Shown here: positions 52,455 to 60,473 of the stretch, in pieces
Layout: each line of letters opens with the position of its first letter
Numbering within the stretch: position 1 is the first letter of the stretch
Assembly (NCBI RefSeq): GCF_000334895.1
Contig: NZ_BAFM01000013.1
Location: 1 to 64,000 of the forward strand
Reading direction: 5' to 3'
Length of the DNA: 64,000 bases
Source: Halococcus agarilyticus
Lineage (GTDB): Archaea > Halobacteriota > Halobacteria > Halobacteriales > Halococcaceae
Made by a program: the position numbers and the translations under genes
The notes under the pieces: generated by a model
The model's input: only the letters and a program-made list of their open reading frames with translations
What the model was told of the DNA's origin: nothing
Databases searched by the model: none

Positions 52455-53204
52455 ATGCTCGAATCCGTCGGAGATCCCTCACTACCGACGAGGCTGCTCG
52501 GGCTACTGTTGTTCGGCGTCGCTGCTGCACTTTCGGCTCGTGGCCACCGACGGTTGCAAGGGCTAGACGCTAATGAGGGGTCTCACGTCAAGCGACGGCG
52601 AAAGTGGGTCGCTCTGACGTTGCTCCTGACTGTGGCTCTCTTCGGATATATTCGTTTGTTTGACGTTCCGTACGCTGTAGTCGGGATTTATCCTCGGTCC
52701 ATGGCTGCGAACCCGTTGCTGCTTGTCCCCGACCTCTTCCTTGGCACATTCCTCGGATTCGGTCTCTACGTTATCGGTTCAGGGCTAGGAGTCATAGTAA
52801 GCAGACTTGGGGACGAACCAGACAGGACGCAGCTTCGAGCGTCGGTTCCTCGATCAAGTACCGGTTGGATAGAGCTGTTCGTCGTTTCCATACCAGCGAT
52901 CGCGGTAGCAGAAGAACTACTCTTCCGTAGCACAATCGGTGCGTTGTACGCTGGATACGGTGTATCACCGTGGATTTTCGTCGTGCTGACCTCGGTGCTG
53001 TTCGGTTTCAATCATCTCTACGAAGGGGGTGCTGTTGCAGTGTCGAACGGGATCGTCGGAGGCATGCTGGGCGCGATTTTCGTTCTCACTGGGAACGTGA
53101 TCGTTCCCATCGCTGCTCACTACGCCAACAGCGCGACGCTGTATCTCGCCATCTACCAACAGCCCGAAGAGCTGTTCGATGAGGTTCCCCCGAGCCTGCG
53201 ATAG
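52455..53204 (+). CDS. CPBP-family intramembrane metalloprotease (2)
   Basis: The 249-residue protein is another CPBP protease, with [34 protein letters not shown] and [17 protein letters not shown] giving the Glu-Glu and His sites. I chose the ATG at 52455 ([15 protein letters not shown]); one at 52431 is possible. Its base composition is visibly richer in A and T than that of its neighbours, suggesting acquisition by transfer. The family includes prenyl-protein and bacteriocin-immunity proteases. Confidence 0.85.
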
Positions 53205-53222
53205 GCGATATCCGAATCTTCT

Positions 53223-53683
53223 CTATAACCCCTCAAGCGACCGCAACCGCTGTTCGACCTTCGGCGGGCGGCGCTCGGGGCGTCGCGCACGCGGTGATCG
53301 GGGATCACGAGCGGGACGGGGTTCGTATCGAGCGCGGCCCGGACGCGGTCGCGGTCGTCCTCGTCGTCGGCGTCAATGTCGGGCACGCGGCGCGCGAGGC
53401 GTTCGACGGTGACCTGGCTGCCGTAGGGGATCTCTCGGACGGCGTCGAGCACCGCGCGCTGGTCGGTGGGGACGGTCAGCGCGCACTCGACGTCGTCGAA
53501 GTCGTCCTCGACGCCCTCCAGATAGTCGAAGATCCGATCGAGGAGGGCGTGATCGGACGCTGCCTCGCTCGCGAGGCTGCCCGGAAAGGAGACCGAGACC
53601 ACGCGCCCGCTCGCGATCCCGACCTGAACACAGCGATCGAGGTACGACGACTCGCGGGCGTAGATGCCGGCCTCCTCGGTCAT
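53223..53683 (-). pseudogene. MGMT/alkyltransferase-like protein lacking the acceptor Cys, frameshifted near its end
   Basis: The ATG at 53683 opens a methylguanine-methyltransferase-like protein. [20 protein letters not shown] matches the DNA-binding helix region, and [19 protein letters not shown] corresponds to the active-site loop. The methyl-accepting Cys of P-C-H-R-V is Asp here (PDHRV), so it cannot be a normal methyltransferase. After APSAA the frame departs; one extra C near 53262-53272 would restore [12 protein letters not shown] and the stop at 53223-53225. Without it the frame runs on to 53153. It may be a damaged gene or a site of sequencing error. Confidence 0.75.
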
Positions 53684-53744
53684 GGCGGAGATAGGGGTGT
53701 GCTGGCCTTTAACATTCGGCCATCCGGCCCGCGCGACGCAAGCC

Positions 53745-53773
53745 TTATGTACAGAACAGTCCTTCGATGTACA
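53745..53773 (+). promoter_or_regulatory. trp promoter with paired TGTACA boxes
   Basis: ATGTACA occurs at 53747-53753 and again at 53767-53773, exactly 20 bases apart, the second ending four bases before the ATG of trpC (53777). TTATGT at 53745-53750 is the likely TATA element, so the first box overlaps it. TGTACA is the TRP-box consensus bound by the TrpY repressor of Methanothermobacter; the two-turn spacing suits cooperative binding. Confidence 0.65.
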
Positions 53774-53776
53774 ACT

Positions 53777-54535
53777 ATGAACGAGAGCGAGGGGGTCGCC
53801 CCCGCGATCGAGTCGATCCTCGCCGCCGCACGCGAGCGCGAGGGTGGGGACGAGCGAGTAGCCGTCGACGCACGAGCACTGCCCGCGGCGCTCTCGGCGG
53901 CCGAAGCCGACGGACGAGTACCGGTCATCGCGGAGGTCAAACCCACGAGCCCGACGACCGACGGCCGGCGCGACGCCGATCCGGTCGACCTCGCCGAAGC
54001 GATGGTCGAGGGCGGCGCGGCGGCGCTCTCGGTGCTGACCGAACCCGCACACTTCGGCGGGTCGCCCGACGCGCTCCGCGAAGTCCGAGCGGCCGTCGAC
54101 GTCCCGGTACTCCGGAAGGACTTCGTGCTGGAGGAGGCGCAGCTCGATACCGTCGAAGCCGACGCCGTCCTCCTGATCGCGCGCTTTCTCGACGACCTCG
54201 ACGGGATGATCGCGGCGGCGCGCGAGCGCGGATTTCAGGCGCTGGTCGAGGTCCACACCGTGGCGGAACTCGATCGCGCGCTCGCGGCCGGCGCGGAGCT
54301 CGTCGGCGTGAACAACCGTGATCTCGCGCAGCTCGACGTCGATCTCTCGACGTTCGAGCAGGTCGCATCCGAGGCCCCGGACGACGTGACGCTGATCGCC
54401 GAAAGCGGTATCGGGAGTCCCGAGGACGCGGGGCGGATGCGCGAGGCGGGCGCGAACGGACTCCTGATCGGGAGCGCGATCATGGATGGCGACGTCGCGG
54501 CGAACACGCGGCGGCTCACGGGGGTGGCGGCGTGA
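53777..54535 (+). CDS. trpC: Indole-3-glycerol phosphate synthase
   Basis: The 252-residue TIM-barrel enzyme shows [14 protein letters not shown] (catalytic lysine), [46 protein letters not shown] and [16 protein letters not shown]. It closes the indole ring: carboxyphenylamino-deoxyribulose phosphate becomes indole glycerol phosphate. The SSP of other TrpC proteins is TSP here. It is the first gene of trpCBA, and trpB starts inside its last codons. The ATG at 53777 follows the TGTACA boxes. Confidence 0.95.
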
Positions 54536-55875
54536 GCGACGCGAGCGGGGACGAGGCGGGCGGAGTCGACACAAGTGATCACGGTGTGAGCGGGAAGTTC
54601 GGCGACTACGGCGGTCAGTACGTCCCCGAGGCGCTGATGCCCGCGATCGAAGAGCTGACCGACGCCTACGAGCGGTACGTCCTCAGGAATGAAGAGGGAT
54701 TCATGGACGAGTTCCGCGAGCGCCTCCGCGAGTTCGGCGGGCGGCCGACGCCGCTCCAGCATGCCGAGCGGCTGAGCGAGCGCTACGACACCGAGGTGTA
54801 CCTCAAGCGCGAGGATCTCCTCCACGGCGGCGCACACAAGCTGAACAACGCGCTCGGCCAGGTCCTGCTCGCGAAGTACATGGACAAGGAGCGAATCGTG
54901 GCCGAGACCGGGGCCGGCCAGCACGGCACCGCGACCGCGATGGCCGCCGCCCACCTCGATATGCCCTGCGAGGTCTACATGGGCGAGACCGACATCAACC
55001 GCCAGCGCCCCAACGTGTTCCGAATGCGGCTGAACGGTGCGGACGTCACCCCGGTCACGGCGGGCCGGGGCACCCTGAAGGAGGCCATCAACGAGACGAT
55101 GCGCGACTGGGCGACCACCGTCGAGAACACCCACTACGTGCTCGGGAGCGTCGTCGGTCCACATCCGTTCCCCGTGATGGTTCGGGACTTTCAGGCTGTG
55201 ATCTCCGAAGAGGCCAGACGGCAGGTTCGTGAGCAGACCGGCGAACTCCCCGACAGCGTGCTCGCGTGTGCGGGCGGTGGCTCGAACACGATGGGTGCGT
55301 TCGCGGCGTTCCTCGACGACGAAGACGTGTCGCTTCATGCGGTCGAGGCGGGCGGCTCGTCGCTCGCGGTCGACGAAGAACGTGGCGTCGCACCCAACTC
55401 CGCATCGCTTTCGACAGGAAATGAAGGTGTGCTCCACGGCGCGCGCACCCGACTCCTCCAGGACGACGACGGCCAGATCCTCGAATCCCACTCGGTCTCG
55501 GCGGGGCTCGATTATGCAGGAGTTGGCCCCGAACTGGCGCATCTCGTGGAGTCCGGGCGCGTCCGGGCAGTCAACGTCGACGACGACGCCGCGCTCGCGG
55601 CGTTCCACCGACTCTCCAGCACGGAGGGAATCATCCCGGCGCTCGAAAGCGCCCACGCGCTCGCCTATCTCGAACGCGTGGCCGGGCCGTCGAGCCCGGC
55701 CACGGAGGGGTCGAGCGGGGAACCGCGAGACGAGGCCCACGACGACCTCGGCGACATAGTGATTGTGAACGTCTCCGGGCGGGGCGACAAGGACCTCGAA
55801 ACGGTGATCGAGGAGACCGACCGACGCGAGATTCCGGAAGCGCCCGAAATGGACGTCTTCACGGAGGGACTCTGA
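54532..55875 (+). CDS. trpB: Tryptophan synthase beta subunit
   Basis: The 447-residue PLP enzyme has [19 protein letters not shown] at its start, the PLP lysine in [15 protein letters not shown], the substrate loop [14 protein letters not shown], and the phosphate-binding [12 protein letters not shown]. It joins indole and serine to give tryptophan. An acidic insertion near residues 383-403 is longer than in bacterial TrpB and typical of halophilic adaptation. It starts at a GTG overlapping the trpC stop, and its TGA overlaps the trpA ATG, so the three genes are coupled. Confidence 0.96.
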
Positions 55876-56714
55876 TGGACGCCATCGAGGCGGCCTTTGC
55901 GGACGGCCCGGCGTTCGTGCCGTACCTCGCGGCGGGCGATCCCGACTACGACGCCTCGCTCGAATACGTCGCAGCGCTCGCGCGCGGCGGGGCCGACGTG
56001 ATCGAACTCGGCCTCCCCTTCTCCGAGCCCGTCGCCGAGGGCCCGACGATCCAGGCGGCCGTCAACCGCTCGCTCGACGCCGGGATGACCCCGGATCGCT
56101 TCTTCGCGTTCGTCGAAGAACTCGACGTGGACGTGCCGCTGGTCTGTATGACCTACTACAATCTGATCTACCGATACGGCGGCGAGGACGCAGAACGCCC
56201 CCGAGCGTTCGTCGAGCGCGCTGCCGCAGCGGGGATCGAGGGGTTCGTGGTGCCCGACCTGCCGGCGGAGGAGGCCGACCCGCTCCGGGAAGCGTGCGAC
56301 GAGTTCGGCTGCGATCTCGTGTTCATCGTCGCGCCCACGACCCAAGGCGAGCGCCTCGATCGGATCATGGCGCGGGTCTCGGGCTACGTCTACGTCCAGG
56401 CACGCCTCGGCGTGACCGGCGCGAAGGCCGACGTCTCGACACAGACGGGCCAGAGCCTCGATCGGCTCGCGGAGTGGGGAGTTCCGAAGGCGGTCGGGTT
56501 CGGGATCTCGTCGGGCGAGCAGGCGGGCGAGGTGGTCGCAGCGGGCGCGGACGGCGTGATCGTCGGGAGCGCGCTCGTCGACATCGTGGCCGAGGGTCAC
56601 GAGGCGGGCGACGACGCCGCGACCGTTGCCGAGCGACTCGAAACGAAAGCCCGCGAACTCAAAGAGGGGGCGGTCGCAGGCGCGCAACGCACGCCGCGAC
56701 CGGAACGGACATAA
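55875..56714 (+). CDS. trpA: Tryptophan synthase alpha subunit
   Basis: The 279-residue TIM barrel has [18 protein letters not shown], the active-site loop [38 protein letters not shown] and [14 protein letters not shown]. It cleaves indole glycerol phosphate to indole and glyceraldehyde 3-phosphate. Aligned to bacterial TrpA, the catalytic Glu49 is kept, but Asp56 and the catalytic Asp60 are both Glu here. I believe this is shared by haloarchaeal TrpA, so it is probably functional. The ATG overlaps the trpB stop. Confidence 0.95.
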
Positions 56715-56737
56715 CCGCCGTGGCATCGAATACCAGT

Positions 56738-57532
56738 ATGAACCCCGGCACGCAGGCACGACTCGATCGGATCGGTACGGATGGGCGGTACCTCACGGTC
56801 CCGATGGACCACGGCATCACGCTCGGAGCCGTCGACGGGCTGAAGCGAATCGAGGACACGATCGACGCGGTGACACGCGGCGGCGCGGACGCGGTCCTGA
56901 CACAGAAGGGAATCGCGCCGCGGGTCCACCCGAACAAGAACGGTGCGGGCTACGTGATCCATCTGAACGGCTCGACCGCGACCGGCCCGGACACCAACGA
57001 CAAGCGGCGGACGGGCACGGTCGAGGAGGCGATCCGGGCGGGCGCGGACGCGGTCTCCTTTCACATCAACGTCGGCAGCGATTCCGAACCCGAACAGATC
57101 GAGGATCTCGCACGACTGACCGAACGCGCGCGCGAGTTCGGCATCCCGGTGCTCGCGATGACGTACGCCCGCGGGCCAGGCGTCGACGAGGCCGATCCCG
57201 AACGCCTCGGCCACGCGGTCCGGCTGGGCGAAGAGTTGGGTGCCGACGTGGTGAAGACCGGCTACTCGGGCGACAGCGAGAGCTTCGAACACGTCGTCGA
57301 GTCGACCCGACTCCCGGTGGTGATCGCGGGCGGCGAGCCCGAGGGCGATCACGCGACGCTCGACGCCGTTCGGGGCGCGATGGACGCGGGCGCGGCCGGC
57401 GTCTCGATGGGGCGGACGATCTTCCAGCACGACGATCCCGAGGCGATCACCCGTGCGGTCGCGGGCGTCGTCCACGACGACCTCCCGGCCGACGACGCAC
57501 TCGATCGTGCCGGGCTCGCGGTCGAGGCCTAA
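56738..57532 (+). CDS. 2-amino-3,7-dideoxy-D-threo-hept-6-ulosonate synthase (ADH synthase)
   Basis: The 264-residue class I aldolase has LTVPMDHGITLGAVDGLKRI, THP-type loops (HLNGSTATGPDTNDKRRTG) and the Schiff-base lysine in ADVVKTGYSGDSESF. VVIAGGEPEGDHATL and GVSMGRTIFQH form the phosphate site. It makes the first intermediate of the archaeal route to 3-dehydroquinate from aspartate semialdehyde and a sugar phosphate. It follows trpA by 23 bases and is probably co-transcribed. Its pathway partner, 3-dehydroquinate synthase II, is at 59241. Confidence 0.92.
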   Translation: MNPGTQARLDRIGTDGRYLTVPMDHGITLGAVDGLKRIEDTIDAVTRGGADAVLTQKGIAPRVHPNKNGAGYVIHLNGSTATGPDTNDKRRTGTVEEAIRAGADAVSFHINVGSDSEPEQIEDLARLTERAREFGIPVLAMTYARGPGVDEADPERLGHAVRLGEELGADVVKTGYSGDSESFEHVVESTRLPVVIAGGEPEGDHATLDAVRGAMDAGAAGVSMGRTIFQHDDPEAITRAVAGVVHDDLPADDALDRAGLAVEA

Positions 57533-59240: not shown

Positions 59241-60473
59241 ATGACACGTTCCGTCTGGCTCAAGGCCGACGACGCGGTGGGCGACTGGGAGCAACGAAAG
59301 AAACGGATCACCGCGGGGCTCGAAGCCGGCGTCGACTGGGTTCTCGTCGACGAGGACGACGTCTCGCGGGTTCGGGATCTCGGACGGGTGTCGGTCGCGG
59401 CGTTCGAAACCGCCGGCCCGGACGTCATCGGCGACGCCGAGGACGGCCCGGACGCGAGCGTCGTGGGCAAGGACGGCGAGGGCGACGGCACCGCCGACCT
59501 CCCCCCGGATCACTCGGGCTCGGCGGACCTCTCCGCGCTCCGACGGGGCGACGCCGACACCGCCTACGTCCGGGTGTTCAATCAGGACTACGAGTCCTTC
59601 GCCGAGAGCGCGGCCGAGGCCGCCGATCACACCCTCGTGGTGAGCGAGGACTGGACCATCATCCCGCTCGAAAACCTGATCGCGCGGATCGGCGACGAGA
59701 CCGAGCTCGTCGCGGGCGTCGAAACCGCCGAGGAGGCCCGCACCGCGTTCGAGACGCTCGAAACCGGGGCCGATGGCGTGCTCCTCGATTCGGACGACCC
59801 CGACGAGATCCGGCGCACCGTCGAGGTCAGGGAGGAGGCCGAGCGCGAGCAGCTCGACCTCCAGTGGGCGACGATCACCGCGATCGAGCGGGTCGGCTCC
59901 GCCGACCGGGTCTGCGTCGACACCGGCTCGCTGATGGAGAGCGACGAGGGGATGCTCGTGGGATCGATGAGTCGCGGGCTCTTCTTCGTTCACGCCGAGA
60001 CCGCCGAGTCGCCGTACGTCGCCTCCAGACCGTTCAGGGTGAACGCCGGTGCAGTCCACGCCTACGTCCGGACGCCCGGCGGCGGGACGAAGTATCTCGC
60101 GGAGGTGGGCAGCGGCGACGAGGTTCAGGTGGTCGACACCGACGGCCGGGCGCGCGAGGCGGTCGTCGGGCGTGCGAAGATCGAGCGCCGGCCGATGTTC
60201 CGGATCGAGGCCGAAGTGGGAAATGACGCCGGGTCGGACGACGCCGACGGATCCAAGCCAGTCGACGAGGCCGAGTCGGGCGAGAGTGACGCCACACCCG
60301 ACGGAGACCGGATCGAAACGTTGCTCCAGAACGCCGAGACCATCAAAGTCGCCACCCGCGACGGGCCGCGGGCGGTGACCGACCTCGAGCCGGGCGACGA
60401 GGTCCGGGTCCACTACGAGGAGACCGCCCGCCACTTCGGCGAGGCGGTCGACGAGCGGATCGTCGAGAAGTAG
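59241..60473 (+). CDS. 3-dehydroquinate synthase II
   Basis: The 410-residue protein starts MTRSVWLKADDAVGDWEQRK and has ARVFNQDYE-like YVRVFNQDYESFAESAA, WTIIPLENLIARIG, RVCVDTGSLMESDEGMLVGS and FRVNAGAVHAYVRTPGGGT, all typical of the archaeal enzyme. It turns the ADH synthase product into 3-dehydroquinate by NAD-dependent oxidation and cyclisation. Two acidic insertions (about 70-98 and 325-352) are halophilic additions. The ATG at 59241 fits the family start. Confidence 0.93.
   Translation: MTRSVWLKADDAVGDWEQRKKRITAGLEAGVDWVLVDEDDVSRVRDLGRVSVAAFETAGPDVIGDAEDGPDASVVGKDGEGDGTADLPPDHSGSADLSALRRGDADTAYVRVFNQDYESFAESAAEAADHTLVVSEDWTIIPLENLIARIGDETELVAGVETAEEARTAFETLETGADGVLLDSDDPDEIRRTVEVREEAEREQLDLQWATITAIERVGSADRVCVDTGSLMESDEGMLVGSMSRGLFFVHAETAESPYVASRPFRVNAGAVHAYVRTPGGGTKYLAEVGSGDEVQVVDTDGRAREAVVGRAKIERRPMFRIEAEVGNDAGSDDADGSKPVDEAESGESDATPDGDRIETLLQNAETIKVATRDGPRAVTDLEPGDEVRVHYEETARHFGEAVDERIVEK

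Follow-up and report, generated by a model that had tools for sequence, protein, structure and literature searches.

The first gene of the tryptophan operon trpCBA in Halococcus agarilyticus is preceded by two copies of TGTACA, the TRP-box hexamer of TrpY from Methanothermobacter thermautotrophicus, and the question raised by this locus is whether a haloarchaeon controls tryptophan synthesis through a comparable operator and, if so, which protein occupies it. The present analysis begins from the window, i.e. the whole 64,000-nucleotide stretch of contig NZ_BAFM01000013.1, and extends to the remainder of that genome and to other haloarchaea. Judged from sequence comparison, the TGTACA array is real, specific to trp genes, and deeply conserved in haloarchaea, while the sign of control and the protein involved can be argued with differing degrees of confidence.

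The trpC promoter in the window reads ...GACGCAAGCCTTATGTACAGAACAGTCCTTCGATGTACAACTATGAAC... and its features, with those of the neighboring genes, are collected in Table 1. A sequence-only reading of the window had claimed two TGTACA boxes 20 bp apart at the trpCBA promoter, overlapping the TATA element and the start region of trpC. The positions were confirmed, save that the start given as 53747 was one base early, and the overlap was borne out as well, with Box 1 over the TATA-like sequence and Box 3 at the start region. The outer boxes are exactly 20 bp apart from start to start, with a spacer of 14 bp, and Box 3 ends 3 bp short of the trpC ATG (53777). The pair itself is present, but the element proved to be larger than a pair, comprising three boxes at trpC and, at trpD, four positions. 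Because the middle box lies exactly midway, the trpC element is best described from the aligned promoters as a 26-bp array of three boxes at 10-bp pitch, TGTACA-N5-GTNC-N5-TGTACA. The consensus of the middle box over 105 promoters is (A/C)GTNC(G/A), in which the G, T, and C of GTNC carry 1.92, 1.42, and 2.0 bits. Since two helical turns separate the outer boxes and the weaker box falls midway, all three would lie on one face of the DNA. Leaderless transcripts are frequent in haloarchaea, and as the TATA-like sequence precedes the start by about 27 bp, transcription probably begins at or just before the trpC ATG, near 53774–53777, to give a leaderless or nearly leaderless message.

Table 1. Promoter elements of trpC and surrounding genes in the window.
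Feature	Position	Strand	Basis or remark
Divergent gene, Ogt/MGMT-superfamily-like	53201–53683	-	match below curated cut-off
BRE-like element CGCAAG of trpC promoter	53737–53742	+	sequence; columns conserved in relatives
TATA-like TTATGT	53745–53750	+	sequence; overlapped by Box 1; T-T-(A/T)-T-G conserved in relatives
Box 1	53748–53753	+	TGTACA; 66/105 aligned haloarchaeal promoters have TGTACA, the rest mostly TGTGCA or TGAACA
Middle box	53758–53763	+	AGTCCT, core GTCC 53759–53762; 10 bp from each outer box
Box 3	53768–53773	+	TGTACA at -9 to -4 from ATG; TGTACA in 74/105 aligned promoters
trpC, indole-3-glycerol phosphate synthase, first gene of operon	53777–54535	+	NF041303, E=6e-127
trpB, overlapping trpC stop	54532–55875	+	TIGR00263, E=1e-177
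trpA	55875–56714	+	TIGR00262, E=1e-73
Frame with 2-amino-3,7-dideoxy-D-threo-hept-6-ulosonate (ADH) synthase	56702–57532	+	TIGR01949, E=1e-108; true start slightly inside frame
3-dehydroquinate synthase II	59241–60473	+	

The ADH synthase gene, belonging to the early aromatic pathway, is probably the fourth gene of the operon, and the order trpC-trpB-trpA-ADH synthase matches the trpCBA-OE1472F operon of Halobacterium (PMC4162585). The enzyme that follows in the archaeal aromatic pathway, 3-dehydroquinate synthase II, is encoded near the trp operon with no TGTACA box upstream. The Ogt/MGMT-like gene is divergent from trpC on its other side, so that both genes share the intergenic region, and a family on the divergent side recurs upstream of trpC in many loci, the largest cluster containing 38.

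The spaced pair is rare. There was one occurrence of TGTACA-N10-20-TGTACA in the window and none in 100 dinucleotide shuffles. The 3.48-Mb genome contains 230 copies of TGTACA (191 in the control reading), yet TGTACA-N8-20-TGTACA was found at the trpC promoter alone, with none in the reversed control; the chance expectation for pairs spaced by exactly 20 bp is about 0.015 genome-wide (about 230 x 230 / 3.48 Mb). Two models of the element were used. The first, R1, is a sequence-only model whose training rows include the trpD operator of genome G051 and in which rows 18–21 are approximate in their last two letters; in the H. agarilyticus genome it detected no further targets at E<=10. The second, R2, is a clean model rebuilt from trpC promoters only; in the window it matched the trpC site alone (E=8e-7, this site being among its training rows).

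The proposal of paired boxes was vulnerable to a lack of conservation upstream of trp operons in related species, and it withstood that comparison, as the array recurs across haloarchaea. All 8 congeners more than 90% complete had exactly one TGTACA pair each, always with a spacer of 14. Among 22 trpC loci from named or MAG haloarchaea (Halococcus, Natrinema, Natronorubrum, Halorubrum, Halovenus, Halarchaeum, Natrialba, and others), 21 extended far enough upstream, and all 21 had the array, intact or degenerate, with Box 1 sometimes TGAACA. When all fetched loci were pooled, 105 of 107 distinct haloarchaeal trpC upstream regions aligned to the array. In these 105 promoters the operator positions carried 1.0–2.0 bits, compared with a mean of 0.1 bit about 21–100 bp upstream of Box 1, and the flank upstream of the BRE had no conservation. 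R1, on which the genome-wide counts and the secondary matches rest, had matches in 213 of 243 haloarchaeal genomes, representing 68 of 73 genera, nearly all of them once. Most genomes with a weak or absent R1 match had degenerate trpC boxes, e.g. TGTGCA...TGAACA; boxes were strongly degenerate in genus g32, which bears the same family label as Halorubrum-like genomes, and three genomes (G027, G025, and G051) had no array before trpC.

The second operon, trpDFEG, is also marked. Of 20 secondary R1 matches inspected, 14 were at trpD promoters and one at a trpC promoter, with five chance-like or unexplained. The trpD result held with R2, for which 148 kb of trp loci outside its training gave 26 matches at E<=1, all of them either at trpD promoters or, in G040 (locus L054), at that of trpBA, while 163 kb of control loci, mostly haloarchaeal, gave none. 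Because R2 finds trpD promoters and nothing in the control loci, the element is, by this comparison, specific to the two trp operons trpCBA and trpDFEG. Alignment of trpD upstream regions from 29 genomes placed GTAC cores at offsets 2, 12, and 32, with a degenerate position at offset 22, thus the same 10-bp pitch as at trpC, but the trpD array is downstream of the trpD TATA, between it and the ATG. The trpD promoter of H. agarilyticus itself has the array in degenerate form and was not recovered by R1 at E<=10. The full 26-bp operator occurs at trpD in G040, G025, G051, and G027, and in G040 and G025 it is also found ahead of trpBA. In these last two genomes an array is situated between trpC and trpB (L054 2466–2491 in G040; G025:C10:263011–263038) and the trpC upstream region is without boxes, from which trpBA in this family seems to have its own regulated promoter.

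Several further sites were observed in passing. In G054, TGTACA box pairs overlap in a cluster of four or more at L025 1501–1650 (G054:C55:10322–10473), a place that does not adjoin trpC. The same genome has a near-perfect three-box array, TGTACATATATGTACTTTACTGTAC, beside a methyltransferase-like gene (L242 2397–2422, G054:C16), which is possibly an extra member of the regulon in G054. A similar site, TTGTACATCGATG...CCTAGTTGTTGATGG, was seen in two congeners (L246 2428–2452 and L248 2168–2191, in G460 and G260), where the secondary match lies toward the end of a reading frame of 659 aa.

We consider it likely that the 26-bp element is the operator of a trp-pathway-specific haloarchaeal regulator, with a winged-helix repressor covering the TATA and start region of trpC and the trpDFEG array acting in parallel. 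At high levels of tryptophan, or of aromatic amino acids in general, the array would be occupied by a winged-helix protein acting as a dimer or multimer, which would lie over the TATA element and start site and keep TBP/TFB and RNA polymerase out. The blocked promoter would leave trpCBA and the downstream aromatic gene off, and the four-position, 10-bp-pitch array at trpD would allow trpDFEG to be switched in parallel. Repression as the sign of control, the ligand, and the identity of the protein are what we infer. Repression is favored because the conserved positions beyond the BRE sit on the TATA and start region, which is the classical site for a repressor excluding TBP/TFB or polymerase. 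It is very improbable that the TGTACA reading is a coincidence of strong basal promoter sequence (BRE, TATA, and initiator) and nothing more. Part of the conservation, in the BRE and TATA columns, is plain promoter signal, and Box 1 on the TATA and Box 3 at the start region are placed as such an explanation would have them, but the model matches one or two promoters per genome rather than hundreds, Box 3 and the middle box lie outside the TATA, and the trpD array is downstream of its TATA yet retains the same box sequence and pitch. In Halobacterium salinarum both trpCBA and trpDFEG are induced without aromatic amino acids (PMC4162585), as end-product repression predicts; this induction would fit activation and derepression equally. 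In favor of an array that recruits TBP/TFB at tryptophan scarcity, like the sites of Ptr2 or Tar, trp in Thermococcus is under activation by Tar, which recognizes a related palindrome, TGGACA-N8-TGTCCA (PMC6737238), but the sites reported for archaeal activators lie upstream of the BRE/TATA (PMC6737238), whereas the trpC array spans TATA to start and the flank upstream of the BRE is the unconserved part, and we regard activation as unlikely. A caution comes from the native trpCBA promoter of Haloferax volcanii, for which loose control is reported in the account of Large et al. 2007 given by PMC13147458.

Control of the haloarchaeal trp operons by a TrpY-like protein, as the sequence-only reading proposed, is plausible, and the array protein may be a haloarchaeal TrpY homologue (winged helix plus DUF7839) in a genuine TrpY/TRP-box regulon that came from methanogens or has a common ancestry with theirs, a reading that we hold tentatively and at somewhat less than even confidence. 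Consistent with it, the array hexamer is that of the TRP box. The H. agarilyticus genome encodes a single DUF7839 (PF25211) winged-helix protein, on contig C8 at about 16.7 kb, away from the trp genes. Of 296 Halobacteriota genomes, 255 have the family, and of 14 control genomes only archaeal ones do; since it is so nearly universal among the sampled Halobacteriota, its presence does not discriminate, although the distribution resembles an uncharacterized branch of TrpY homologues reported from haloarchaea, methanogens, and Archaeoglobaceae (PMC6737238). G040 has its DUF7839 gene immediately before trpD, the array lying between the two genes, but among the neighbors of trp promoters G040 is alone in this, and in the methanogen loci examined DUF7839 genes were not near trp genes. 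Attempts to name the regulator by gene neighborhood failed, as none recurs beside trp promoters. Nor does the candidate's own promoter have an array of the kind expected for autoregulation as in trpY, and the TrpY homologue of Thermococcus has no regulatory role at trp (PMC6737238), so that homology would be no guarantee of function. In the AlphaFold model of the DUF7839 protein (mean pLDDT 90, pTM 0.59) a confident winged helix is accompanied by a middle part rich in beta structure and by a separate alpha/beta domain at the C terminus, which could hold a ligand; comparison with the PDB and by Foldseek returned only general winged-helix resemblances (Foldseek: MarR/IclR). Alternatively, the protein on the array may be of the Lrp/AsnC family, LrpA2 (Trh1) for instance, and would repress with or activate without aromatic amino acids. 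Lrp proteins range from dimers to octamers and bind several phased sites, and three to four boxes phased at 10 bp at trpC and trpD would suit such a multimer. Growth of Halobacterium without aromatic amino acids raised LrpA2 (OE2776F) 14.9-fold, and LrpA2 was put forward as the regulator (PMC4162585); for Halobacterium LrpA1, which is leaderless, sites in a much similar layout have been proposed, from -31 to -25 and from -12 to -6 (PMC2894021). However, the induction of LrpA2 may be indirect, no Lrp gene was seen among the recurring trp-promoter neighbors when these were compared as open reading frames only, and R1 gave no other strong site in the H. agarilyticus genome that might be an autoregulated Lrp promoter; we rate an Lrp-type protein on the array as less likely than not, though a serious contender. 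The DUF7839 protein is ranked first as candidate regulator, in keeping with the tentative standing just given to it, and an Lrp-family protein next. The fuller proposition, of a dedicated haloarchaeal tryptophan regulon run by a near-universal and hitherto unassigned archaeal winged-helix plus DUF7839 regulator that multimerizes on TGTACA boxes at 10-bp pitch, is speculative and on balance improbable. A literature search for a haloarchaeal TRP-box or COG1497 regulon found nothing beyond PMC6737238.

A base-level operator map at both trp operons, with order-wide conservation, offers a handle on tryptophan sensing in haloarchaea, and may serve both as bait DNA for the regulator and as a guide for point mutations. 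The trpC promoter is potentially a natural tryptophan-repressible promoter, complementing the tryptophan-inducible p.tna used in Haloferax. Identity of the regulator would tell whether the methanogen TRP box was retained or was reinvented with a different protein, and if the regulon does belong to DUF7839, the family would be an amino-acid sensor across Halobacteriota.

Among known systems, TrpY and its TRP box share with the haloarchaeal array the TGTACA hexamer, trp genes as targets, several boxes over the promoter, and proposed end-product control. As in a TrpY regulon, the trpC promoter has more than one TGTACA box, and boxes are conserved at the trp operons of relatives. The M. thermautotrophicus system has one trpEGCFBAD operon with a divergent, autoregulated trpY (PMC6737238), whereas haloarchaea have two split operons, with no adjoining autoregulated regulator gene in the H. 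agarilyticus genome and with fixed 10-bp phasing over a leaderless-type promoter. Tar (TK0271) of Thermococcus kodakarensis is likewise an archaeal regulator of aromatic amino acid operons that acts through a TGGACA/TGTCCA-type palindrome, but it is an activator, its TGGACA-N8-TGTCCA site is upstream of the BRE/TATA, and it also controls the aro and tyr-phe operons (PMC6737238); at trpC the spacer is 14 and the array is downstream of the BRE, overlapping the TATA. Haloarchaeal LrpA1 and LrpA2 are similarly linked to amino acids, although LrpA1 targets aspB3 and no TGTACA-box array is described for either in PMC2894021 or PMC4162585. LrpA2 responds to lack of aromatic amino acids (PMC4162585), as the trp operons do, and the proposed LrpA1 sites are over the TATA and start of a leaderless gene (PMC2894021). 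The multiple phased sites over the promoter that characterize Lrp/AsnC operators are present here, at 10-bp pitch, at both trpC and trpD.
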